A stretch of DNA of 47,878 nt, from positions 1-47,878 of the forward strand of contig JAJRYD010000019.1 of the NCBI GenBank assembly GCA_024275955.1, in the 5' to 3' direction. The position numbers and the translations under genes are program-made. Origin of the DNA: Nitrospirota bacterium (GTDB taxonomy: Bacteria > Nitrospinota_A > UBA7883 > JACRGQ01). Shown in pieces: positions 7,484 through 23,553 of the stretch; position 1 is the first letter of the stretch; each line of letters begins with the position of its first letter. Under the pieces are notes generated by a model. That model was not told the origin of the DNA, searched no databases, and saw only the letters and a program-made list of their open reading frames with translations.

Positions 7484-8319
7484 TGCCTGCCGGAAAACAG
7501 AAAATAATAGACATAAGCGGAGTAAAGATAGGCAACAACCTGCCTCTTACGCTTATCGCCGGCCCTTGCGTTATCGAAAGCGAGAAGGCGGCGCTCTTGG
7601 CCGCCGAAAAGCTTGTAAAAATTTCGGAAGGTTTAAAAATCGGCCTTGTGTACAAATCGTCATACGATAAGGCGAACCGTTCGTCTATATCCTCTTTTCG
7701 AGGCATCGGCATAAAGCGAGGCTTGACTATCTTAAAAAAGGTGAAAAAGAGGTTCGGCATACCTGTAATATCCGATGTCCATAACGAAATGGAAATACCG
7801 GAAGCAGGGGAAGCGCTCGATATTATTCAGATACCGGCGTTTTTATGCAGACAGACCGACATCCTTACGGCGGCGGCAAAAACCGGAAAAGTGGTAAATG
7901 TAAAAAAAGGGCAGTTCATGGCGCCGGGCGACATGAAAAGAGTGGTAGAAAAAATTTCGGACTCGGGCAACAACCGTATAATGCTGACCGAAAGGGGAAC
8001 GACATTCGGCTACAACAACCTTGTTACCGACTTCCGCTCGCTCCCTATTATGAGGCGGTTCGGCTACCCTGTAATATTCGACGCGACACACTCGGTACAG
8101 CTTCCCGGAGCGAAAGGCGATTCATCCGGCGGAGACAGAGAGTATGTAATACCGCTCGCAAGGGCGGCGGTTGCCGTCGGCACTGCCGGAGTTTTCCTAG
8201 AAGTACACCAAGACCCAGATAAAGCGCCATGCGACGGGCCGAACATGATTAAGCTAAAAGAGCTACCAAAGCTGATAGAAGAACTTATAGCGATAGACCG
8301 GCTCACCAAAAAGCTTTAG
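7483..8319 (+). CDS. kdsA: 3-deoxy-8-phosphooctulonate synthase (Kdo-8-P synthase)
   Basis: KdsA condenses phosphoenolpyruvate with arabinose 5-phosphate to Kdo 8-phosphate. The 278-residue product has the barrel motifs LIAGPCVIES, YKSSYDKANRSS, RGTTFGYNNLV, FDATHSVQLPG and EVHQDPDKAPCDGPN. Cys29 in AGPCVIES is in the place where metal-independent enzymes such as that of E. coli carry Asn, so this looks like the metal-dependent class known from Aquifex, with the later His, Glu and Asp as other ligands; this is a family inference. Its ATG overlaps the pyrG stop by one base. It ends the forward run; a MITE-like element follows 75 bases later. Confidence 0.96.
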
Positions 8320-8393
8320 TGGTTGGGACGATGTTCCGCCGCTTGGCATTTCGGCAAAGCTCGGAATACTGCCCGACTCTCGACCTGCCTTGA

Positions 8394-8523
8394 GGGGACT
8401 GTTTCCAAAAGAGTTTTTTAAGCATTTTAAGGGAAAGTTTATTTTCTAACTTCTTTAAAATGGAACTGTTAAAGATTGGCAATTTGCAGAAAAATCAAAC
8501 TTATCTCATTCGGCAACAGCCCC
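8394..8523 (+). mobile_element. MITE-like element, copy A
   Basis: This 130-bp non-coding element runs from GGGGACTGTTTCCAAAAGAG to CGGCAACAGCCCC, so its ends are imperfect inverted repeats (GGGGCTGTT type). The interior shares GCATTTTAAGGGAAAGTTTA and GATTGGCAATTTG blocks with five other copies in the window. It encodes no protein. The forward reading frame inside it is chance. Confidence 0.75.
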
Positions 8524-8799
8524 TTAATGGAAACCTTTCCGCCGCTTCGCGCCACCTTCCCTTCCTTAATAAAGAGAATGAGTTTTTAAGAAATTGCAGT
8601 TCGAAAACTGACTTTGCTTTGTGGTCTGAGAATTGGTTTACAACTCAAGACCACCTATGATTTACTCCGGTATCGCATCCTTTATCCAAGGATGGGGCAC
8701 CCCCTTTCCTACAAAATCCTCTATGCTTAGCAACACGCCATCAATGTTGTCGTAAATATCATTATTGGAAAACCGAGAAAAAGAATTAATCTAATCCCC
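8524..8799. other. Gene-poor stretch with a possible minus-strand coding remnant
   Basis: On the minus strand a frame without a start codon is open from 8790 to a TAA at 8664-8662. It reads about 42 residues including NNDIYDNIDGVLLSIEDF and ending WIKDAIPE. The composition looks protein-like, so it may be the tail of a lost gene, but I recognise no family and see no ribosome site. Nothing else is evident here. Confidence 0.25.
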
Positions 8800-19573: not shown

Positions 19574-21094
19574 TCACTTTTCCTCTACATATCTGTTGAG
19601 AGCGTTAATATAAGCTTTCGCGCTCGCTTCCACAGTGTCGGTAGAGGCGGCCCGACCACGGACGGTGGGCCCCTGCCTGCCGCCAAACCGAACCTGAACG
19701 GTAACTTCGCTCATAGCGTCCTTATCGGGAGTGGTAGCCTTCGCGATGTAGTTTAACAGCATTCCCTTTTCTTTGGTTGCCCTGCCAATAGCATTATAAA
19801 GCGCGTCTATCGCCCCGTCACCACTACCTGTTCTTTTCGTTTCAACACCTTTTCCGATATCCTTTACCTTTACCGTGGCCGACGGCTCTTCATCACTGCC
19901 GGTAACGACAGTAAAGCTAAGAAGCTTGTAAGCATCGCTCCGCACCGGAATCTCGGTGCCGACAAGCGCTCCCAAGTCTTCGTCAAAAACCTCTTTTTTC
20001 CTATCGGCAAGCTGTTTGAAACGCTCGAATGCCTTATTTAGCTGATCCTTATTAAGCTTAAAACCAAGGCCAGACAGCCGAACGCCGAACGCATGCCTGC
20101 CGGAATGTTTGCCAAGTACTATCCGGTTTTTCTTCAAGCCTATCGAACGGGCGGTCATAATTTCAAAAGTCTCACGCTTTTTTAAAACGCCGTCCTGATG
20201 GATGCCCGATTCGTGAGCGAACGCATTTTCGCCGACTATCGCCTTATTCGGCTGAACACCGATGCCGGTGATGGCGGTGAGCAGTTTGCTCGTCTTCGAA
20301 ATTTCCGCTGTCTTTACTCCTGTACTGCTTTTCAAAAAGTCTTTCCGTGTTTTTATCGCCATTACCACTTCCTCAAGCGAAGTGTTGCCGGCCCTCTCGC
20401 CGATACCGTTGATGGCGCACTCTATCTGCCTTGCTCCATGCTGTATGGCGGTAATCGCGTTGGAGACCGCAAGCCCCAAATCGTTATGGCAATGCACACT
20501 TACCACCGATCTTTTTACGTTATGAACATTCGCCATTATACCGTCAAGCAAAACGGCAAACTCCTCCGGTATCGTATAGCCGACAGTATCCGGCACATTT
20601 ATCGTGCCGGCTCCAGCCTCTATCGCCTCGGAAAAAAGGTCGTGCAGAAAAGCAGGGTCGGAACGGGTCGCGTCCATAGCGGAGAACTCTACATCCTTAG
20701 CAAAACTACAGGCAAGCTTTACCCCTTTCTTTGTCATCTCTATTACCTGCCTGCGCGACTTTTTCATCTGGTACTTAAGGTGTATATCGGAACTGCTTAC
20801 AAAAACATGTATCCGCCTCTTACCGGCAGGCTTTAACGCCTTTCCGGCCGAGACGATATCCGGCTCCAGCATACGGGCAAGCCCACAGATAACCGGCCCT
20901 TTTACCTTTTTGGCTATATTGTTTACCGCCTTAAAATCTCCCTCGCTGGAGATAGGAAAACCTGCCTCAATAACATCTACCTTCAAAACCGCAAGCTGGT
21001 ATGCCAACTGCAGTTTCTCGTCGACGTTCATCGAATATCCGGGTGCTTGCTCGCCGTCCCGCAATGTAGTATCAAAAATAACTATTTTTGCCAT
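19574..21094 (-). CDS. leuA: 2-isopropylmalate synthase
   Basis: LeuA condenses acetyl-CoA with 2-oxoisovalerate in the first committed step of leucine synthesis. The 506-residue product begins IFDTTLRDGEQAPGYSMNVD, the HMGL-type signature with catalytic Arg-Asp. It has the metal-binding HCHNDLGLAVSNA motif, GIGERAGNTSLEEVVMA, and the ESGIHQDGVLK motif. The C-terminal regulatory (leucine-binding) domain is present, about residues 370-506, so feedback inhibition is expected. ilvE, which acts at the end of the same pathway, is at 43.7 kb. A roughly 290-bp leader precedes the gene with a TATAAT on the minus strand near 21226. Confidence 0.96.
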   Translation of the reverse strand: MAKIVIFDTTLRDGEQAPGYSMNVDEKLQLAYQLAVLKVDVIEAGFPISSEGDFKAVNNIAKKVKGPVICGLARMLEPDIVSAGKALKPAGKRRIHVFVSSSDIHLKYQMKKSRRQVIEMTKKGVKLACSFAKDVEFSAMDATRSDPAFLHDLFSEAIEAGAGTINVPDTVGYTIPEEFAVLLDGIMANVHNVKRSVVSVHCHNDLGLAVSNAITAIQHGARQIECAINGIGERAGNTSLEEVVMAIKTRKDFLKSSTGVKTAEISKTSKLLTAITGIGVQPNKAIVGENAFAHESGIHQDGVLKKRETFEIMTARSIGLKKNRIVLGKHSGRHAFGVRLSGLGFKLNKDQLNKAFERFKQLADRKKEVFDEDLGALVGTEIPVRSDAYKLLSFTVVTGSDEEPSATVKVKDIGKGVETKRTGSGDGAIDALYNAIGRATKEKGMLLNYIAKATTPDKDAMSEVTVQVRFGGRQGPTVRGRAASTDTVEASAKAYINALNRYVEEK

Positions 21095-21390: not shown

Positions 21391-21939
21391 TCAGGCCTCT
21401 CTTGTTACTGGAAGGCCTAATTCTTTAGCTTTATCAAAATCAATAACGGTCAGACGCTCCATGCCAAACAGACGCACCCGTCCGGCAAGCTCTTTATTTA
21501 CAGCATCTTGTATATGTATAAGCAGAGGCTTGCGTGAGTCTGGTGTATCAAGAAGGAAAATGAACTTAAGAATGCCATCACTATAACGATGGGCTTTAAC
21601 AGGCAAGATTTCTTTAATACCTTTTCCTATTTTTGTTTTACTCCAAACAGCCGCCAGCATTAACAAAACATCGGTCGCCTTTTCCCTAAGATTCTTTACC
21701 AAGTGAGTGTGGGCTTCGTCTTTTGATTTATCGAATTTATCCCAAAGCTCCTCTCCTTTCAATTCAAGAAAAACGAGTTTGCCTTTACTGTCATCAAACC
21801 AGCCAACATCCATTTCCTTCAAGCTACGACCGCAAAGATTCTTATAAGCCAAACACTCGCAAAGCCGAAAACCGTTCTTTTAAGATATCGTTACTTTAAA
21901 GCCCGACTCAACAACCTCACGCATCCCTTTTTTGGCCAT
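21391..21939 (-). pseudogene. Nuclease-like partner of the ATPase, interrupted by an in-frame stop
   Basis: The frame begins with ATG at 21939, whose base A is shared with the TGA of the upstream ATPase gene (TGATG). It reads MAKKGMREVVESGFKVTIS, meets TAA at 21882-21880 (codon 20), then continues in the same frame as KNGFRLCECLAYKNLCGRS to a stop at 21391. Past the stop, EMDVGWFDDSK and LVFLELKG give Asp44 and Glu59-x-Lys61, the spacing of a PD-(D/E)XK nuclease core. A shorter product of 153 residues could start at TTG 21852 and would keep that core. The coupling to the ATPase marks the first ATG as the ancestral start. A single base change such as GAA to TAA would explain it. The nuclease assignment is inference from motif spacing. 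Confidence 0.65.
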
Positions 21940-22973
21940 CAGGTTGTTCTTAAGTTGTGCCTTACATCGCGGTCATAAAGATCCAGAAATGTATCCTGAA
22001 TGGCGTTGGGGTGGATTTGCAAATAGTCATCTGTGCTGTGGCATTGTATTTCTTTACTTTCCTTATCACGGTAGAGTGAGTGAAATGTAACTTTATCATT
22101 TCTCTCTTTTTGCAAATCTAATTCTTTGAGTAAAACATAGTCATGAGTTGCAATAAGTATTTGCACTCCCATGCGTTGAAGGATTAAAAGAATCTCAACA
22201 ATCTTCCTCAATATTCTAGGGTTCAAATTAGCTTCCGGCTCATCCCAGCAGAAAACAGCACCTTCTAGCAATGTGCCATTTTGAATAAGAACCCATAATA
22301 GGCCAAGTTTTCGAACACCTTCGGCAAGTAGAGAAAATTCAAGATTGCCTTGCTCATTGCGTAGAAAAAACTCTTCGTTTTTAACTTTAACTGTCCCTTC
22401 CATAGCTTCCCGCAAGCGGGACAATATTTCTCTCCGCTTTCTGTCAGCAGGCCCTCGCTTTAGTGGCAAAAGAGCGCGGTCAATAATATCAGCGTAGACC
22501 TCCTCAAAATGAACTTCTCGATAATTGTACATTGACCTAAAACCGGGCGCATTAGACAAGGTCTCTTTAACAGGAATAAACACAGATTCAATTGGAAAAC
22601 GACCCCACATCTTCTCGCCTTGCATCTTAGACGATTCCGCTTTTATTGCATGGTTGGTAAAAGATAGGTGGAGTTTTTTACCAGTAGAAAGAGCCGCGTT
22701 TGAACGAAATATATCTACTGTTCCCCGCGTACTGGCCTTCTGCCGTGTTACCAACCTGCCAAGCTGACTCATTGAAGGCATAAATACACCTAAAATTTTC
22801 TCGGCAAAACTTTTTTTCGACTTTGTAATATCGCATGCGGCATACACTGTTTTAAGAATATGGGTTTTACCAGTCCCGTTACTTCCAATAAAAACATTGA
22901 TGCCGGACGAGAACTTTACCTCTAGCCTCTTGAAAGCTGTAAAATTTGTGAACTTGATTCTACCAATCATCAA
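21939..22973 (-). CDS. AAA/ABC-type ATPase of a two-gene ATPase-nuclease cassette
   Basis: A 344-residue ATPase of the SMC/RecF-like, AAA_15/AAA_21 group. Walker A is GSNGTGKT at 30-37, the ABC signature region is LLAEGVRKLG near 216, Walker B with the catalytic glutamate is VFCWDEPEANLNPR at 240-253, and a switch His277 lies in IATHDY. No membrane segments or transporter features exist, so it acts in the cytosol. Such ATPases with an adjacent small nuclease form many anti-phage systems (Septu, Gabija-like, PARIS-like, retron-associated). It does not carry the TOPRIM nuclease of OLD proteins. The downstream partner overlaps by one base. The pair sits between housekeeping leuA and a glycan operon, a likely accessory insertion. 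Function in defence is inference. Confidence 0.8.
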   Translation of the reverse strand: MMIGRIKFTNFTAFKRLEVKFSSGINVFIGSNGTGKTHILKTVYAACDITKSKKSFAEKILGVFMPSMSQLGRLVTRQKASTRGTVDIFRSNAALSTGKKLHLSFTNHAIKAESSKMQGEKMWGRFPIESVFIPVKETLSNAPGFRSMYNYREVHFEEVYADIIDRALLPLKRGPADRKRREILSRLREAMEGTVKVKNEEFFLRNEQGNLEFSLLAEGVRKLGLLWVLIQNGTLLEGAVFCWDEPEANLNPRILRKIVEILLILQRMGVQILIATHDYVLLKELDLQKERNDKVTFHSLYRDKESKEIQCHSTDDYLQIHPNAIQDTFLDLYDRDVRHNLRTT

Positions 22974-23064: not shown

Positions 23065-23553
23065 GTGATTTACGTTACCGTCGGCAACCACAACCAGCCG
23101 TTCGACAGGCTGATAGCCGAGATAGATAGGCTCGCGCCAGAGCTTGGCGAAACCGTTATCCAGACAGGGTGCAGTAACTACAAGCTCGTAAACGCCAAGT
23201 CGCGAAGCTACTTCCCTTTTGACGAAGCGGAGAAAATGGTAAAGCGTGCCAAGCTTGTGGTGGGGCATGCCGGAATAGGAACGATAATCTCTGCCAGAAA
23301 ATGGAAGACACCGCTCATAATATGCCCGAGACGCAAAAAGTTTGGCGAGCATATAAACGACCACCAGATGGAGATATGCAAAGAGCTTGAAAAAAAGCCT
23401 CGCTATGGTGTTTTAGTAGCATACGAACCTGACGATATAGAAAGGTGCGCTTTGAAAATATTAAACGAAGAGGCGGACTCACCCGAAAACGGGTATGAGG
23501 AGCCGGGATTGGAACTGAAAAAAGCTTTGAAGAAAATTTTGGAAACTATATGA
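23065..23553 (+). CDS. Glycosyltransferase family 28 C-domain protein (PssE/Alg13-like)
   Basis: A 162-residue protein equal to the C-terminal nucleotide-sugar-binding half of GT28 enzymes. It begins MIYVTVGNHNQPFDRLIAEI, the usual PssE/EpsF start, and carries VVGHAGIGTIISARKWKTPL (about 67-86), the donor-binding loop, and GEHINDHQMEICKEL. Such half-enzymes need an Alg14/PssD-like membrane partner that binds the lipid acceptor, and no such gene is adjacent. GTG is the start with AGAGG nine bases upstream. It overlaps the next gene by four bases (ATGA), so four genes to 25595 form an operon for a surface polysaccharide or glycolipid. Confidence 0.85.
   Translation: MIYVTVGNHNQPFDRLIAEIDRLAPELGETVIQTGCSNYKLVNAKSRSYFPFDEAEKMVKRAKLVVGHAGIGTIISARKWKTPLIICPRRKKFGEHINDHQMEICKELEKKPRYGVLVAYEPDDIERCALKILNEEADSPENGYEEPGLELKKALKKILETI

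Follow-up and report, generated by a model that had tools for sequence, protein, structure and literature searches.

The window, i.e. the whole stretch of 47,878 nucleotides that was analysed, carries two adjacent genes on the minus strand: an intact ATPase gene (21939..22973) and, directly behind it, the frame of a small protein (21391..21939) that is interrupted at codon 20. They are referred to as HEC-02A and HEC-02B, respectively, after the family to which they are assigned below. HEC-02A comprises 344 codons and a TGA stop when read from a TTG at 22973; an ATG at 22970, four bases after a GGAG, may apply instead, giving a product of 343-344 aa. In Pfam searches, AAA_21 (6.6e-22) and AAA_15 scored above cut-off, and the translation contains a Walker A motif (GSNGTGKT), a signature region (LLAEGVRKLG), a Walker B motif (VFCWDEPEANLNP) and an H-loop (ATHD). 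Judged by these features of its sequence, the protein is an OLD-type ABC ATPase with intact motifs.

The HEC-02B frame (21939-21391, minus strand) consists of 182 codons and a stop; the 183 codons counted in an earlier interpretation made from the letters alone (hereafter the sequence-only reading) include this final stop. As described there, the ATG at 21939 shares one base with the ATPase stop (TGATG), and a TAA at 21880..21882, codon 20, splits an otherwise open frame. The ATG at 21939 had also been proposed as the start. It does overlap the ATPase stop, but a second ATG at codon 6 (21922..21924), where many homologs begin in our alignments, may be the real start. After the TAA, 162 codons remain open up to the stop at 21391. 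Only one of 20,000 base shuffles of this downstream part stayed open, which indicates that it codes for protein or did so until recently. The TAA is the single lesion and no frameshift was found; since the frame is intact on both sides of it, rescue by a single frameshift is ruled out.

Assignment to the HEC-02 family

Both proteins were searched with profile HMMs. The PADLOC models assigned the ATPase to HEC-02A (PDLC04213, E 5.2e-129, over positions 1-341) and the small protein to HEC-02B (PDLC04224, E 4.1e-34, for the part after the TAA only). A name and a family can thus be given to a pair that the sequence-only reading could not match to any named system. When the genome was searched with the HEC-02B profile, the match ran through the TAA and covered profile positions 1-174, and our own A2 profile likewise gave a HEC-02B match through the TAA (E 1.0e-68). 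Because these matches cross the stop, the sequence before it belongs to the same protein, in agreement with the earlier remark that protein-like sequence continues on both sides. By profile similarity, the pair is a member of HEC-02, a known candidate defence system, with a broken HEC-02B frame. The resemblance to ATPase-nuclease defence modules that had been suggested is also borne out, in that a defence-type ATPase is paired with a nuclease-like effector.

HEC stands for "Hma-embedded candidate", a term from a preprint by Payne et al. (2024) according to PMC12988326, in which it is cited. No description of an anti-phage activity of HEC-02 was found in the accessible literature. Like HEC-02 as modelled in PADLOC, the window pair has both matching proteins, adjacent and in the same order. 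It differs in that the small gene is interrupted by the TAA, and in that the pair is solitary, flanked by leuA (19574-21094) and a glycosyltransferase gene (23065-23553), and not embedded in a defence locus.

Predicted nuclease function of HEC-02B

Of HEC-02B, 14 distinct full-length homologous genes were collected, 12 from genome contigs and 2 from plasmid records, and each of these genes stands behind a HEC-02A-type ATPase gene. The putative PD-(D/E)XK active site extends from Asp44 to Glu59-x-Lys61 (21757..21810), with all three residues at the positions numbered in the sequence-only reading. D44 and E59 are invariant in homologs, and position 61 is K in most and R in several. A divergent HEC-02 small protein, encoded by a genome of the same bacterial family (G009), aligned its D and its E-V-K-D stretch with those of the window family in a profile comparison (hhalign, E 0.0008), and had a sub-threshold NERD match on the same E-V-K-D stretch.

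Two structure models for HEC-02B were confident, with pLDDT values of 94 and 92. For the second model, the five best Foldseek matches were Can2 (prob 0.85, E 0.027), SduA, EXO5, SfsA and Cdn1, none with E <= 0.001; we take all five to be PD-(D/E)XK-type folds or enzymes. Foldseek searches against the PDB and viral models returned weak matches only, none individually significant. Taken singly, each of the fold matches is weak, but as a group they tend towards PD-(D/E)XK enzymes. Pfam and NCBIfam gave no match for HEC-02B, including none to a curated nuclease family, a sequence search of solved structures returned nothing, and hhalign comparisons with single VRR_NUC and HamA sequences gave no signal. 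The PD-(D/E)XK assignment proposed earlier is plausible: it is favoured by the invariant D44 and E59 and by the direction of the fold matches, but weakened by the R at position 61 in several homologs and by the missing Pfam nuclease match. Overall, we predict with good confidence that HEC-02B is a PD-(D/E)XK nuclease.

Genomic context and comparison with known systems

Third-position GC was 0.38 in both HEC-02 genes vs 0.55 in leuA, and this lower value would fit horizontal acquisition of the pair. No second copy of the pair was present in the genome, no repeat or RNA element adjoined the pair, and no HEC-02 relatives were found in viral contigs and phage records. When family members were compared for an empty site, the leuA and glycosyltransferase matches lay on different contigs there.

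The closest homologous pair (L020, JAFDKF010000003.1) lies inside a BREX locus, between PglX and BrxHI-PglZ-BrxA. Other HEC-02 pairs were located between pglX and pglZ on a Polaromonas plasmid (L017) and between PglX and BrxC in Malikia (L026). The window pair shares about 75-76% identity with L020 in the ATPase and 59% in the small protein, vs 56% and 57%, respectively, with another homologous pair (L018), so that the small protein is nearly as close to L018 as to L020. Such values may mean either that HEC-02B evolves fast or that the partners have recombined.

OLD-ABC ATPases paired with PD-(D/E)XK REases have been described in BREX loci as backup effectors in a 2026 survey (PMC12839542). 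The window pair is the same combination of proteins and its closest relative is BREX-embedded, but no BREX genes were seen beside the window pair and its nuclease gene is broken. PARIS (AriA/AriB) also combines an OLD-type ATPase with a small effector, and AriA is a more distant match to the window ATPase (3e-23). Its AriB, however, is a TOPRIM nuclease (PMC12839542), whereas the small protein of the window had no AriB or TOPRIM match in Pfam and PADLOC. Septu and Gabija belong to the same broad ATPase superfamily and gave weak matches to the window ATPase; the pair lacks the HNH partner (PtuB) of the former and the TOPRIM/helicase architecture (GajA/GajB) of the latter. Taken with the BREX embedding of relatives, the D...E-x-K pattern across divergent small proteins adds sequence evidence that HEC-02 is a module of an OLD-type ATPase and a PD-(D/E)XK protein.

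Interruption of the effector gene

The codon at position 20 is a sense codon in 14/14 full-length homologs, where it encodes S, K, E, N, D, A or V; this variability indicates that the position is not catalytic. The window frame retains 34 of 39 strongly conserved columns, as compared with 32-36 in intact homologs. An open frame of 162 codons with its conserved residues kept points to a break that is recent, or equally to a polymorphism or a consensus error. We consider the first of these to be probable: the locus would be a HEC-02 ATPase with a likely PD-(D/E)XK nuclease, in which the effector was lost through a recent nonsense codon and the module is probably inactive. This agrees with the silencing of the effector by a single mutation that had been suggested earlier. 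The recent date is indicated by the single lesion, the lack of a frameshift and the undecayed remainder of the nuclease frame. When branch rates were compared to look for decay in the window HEC-02B, the outcome was ambiguous, as the choice of outgroup changed which branch was the faster.

By analogy with PARIS- and OLD-like systems, the ATPase of an intact module would sense an infection cue and then release or position the nuclease, which, once licensed, would cut nucleic acid. In the window, a single nonsense codon would have arisen early in the nuclease gene, such that translation would yield only a peptide of 14-19 residues and leave the ATPase without its effector and the module off. Loss is common among defence modules whose effectors are dangerous, and the window pair is a simple example of a nonsense codon in the effector gene with the ATPase still intact; it is ordinary and matters little alone.

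A different origin of the TAA, through an error in the assembly or consensus or as a strain variant in the minority, with the gene intact in most cells, appears unlikely to us. A consensus error would be expected to show, as here, as one isolated substitution, the frame past the stop is unspoiled with its conserved residues in place, and the genome is in 56 contigs. Consensus substitution errors are nevertheless usually rare, the genome is estimated to be 98% complete and 0.15% contaminated, and decayed copies of HEC-02B occur elsewhere too. One of these, in a Thiosymbion MAG (L031, 4337-6372), is broken by two stops as well as an insertion and is without an ATPase match, and at another locus (L028) both HEC-02 genes are truncated.

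The sequence-only reading had also raised the possibility of a short product made from the TTG at codon 30 (21850..21852). The 153-codon remainder is open and includes D44, E59 and K61, but this TTG is the start of none of the 14 full-length homologs, all of which begin upstream of the nearly invariant E11-S12-G13 that precedes the stop, indicating that it is not the start used by the family. A protein begun there would lose the conserved E11, S12, G13, F24 and R25, as well as a beta hairpin that is modelled at residues 6-19 for the closest homolog (pLDDT 94), and no Shine-Dalgarno-like motif lies at usable spacing upstream of the TTG. A functional shorter HEC-02B, made from this TTG or by re-initiation past the TAA, is accordingly improbable. 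It also seems very improbable that the pair, instead of being a dead copy, works as a regulatory variant of HEC-02 in which the stop is tolerated, either owing to an independent role of the ATPase or since truncation of the effector is deliberate. Read-through of the TAA as a deliberate control keeping a toxic nuclease at low levels can scarcely be credited: the same frame does continue past the TAA and a cell might hold a dangerous effector at a low level, but no homolog has a stop at codon 20, the search showed no recoding signal, and TAA serves as an ordinary stop in the window, terminating 12 of its 38 long mechanically called ORFs.

Other loci of the family

Divergent intact HEC-02 pairs were found in related genomes of the same family (G009, L005:1489-3054) and the same class (G018, L006:927-2565). 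Judged by the matches of the L005 proteins, two labels in PADLOC-DB 2.0.0 look swapped relative to the remaining HEC-02 models, since the small protein is matched by PDLC04145 (labelled "HEC-02A", 170 positions) and the ATPase by PDLC04146 (labelled "HEC-02B", 344 positions). The decayed HEC-02B of the Thiosymbion MAG immediately follows an ORF for a type I restriction enzyme. In Halochromatium roseum (L030:4916-8587), two pairs of an ATPase and a small protein form a tandem, and the small protein of the second pair (8054-8587) is without a PADLOC or Pfam match. In the closest homologous locus (L020:4704-6552), brxHI follows immediately after the HEC-02 pair, and upstream of the pair there is a short ORF similar to the beginning of BrxHI, which looks as though the insertion had duplicated the 5' end of brxHI.
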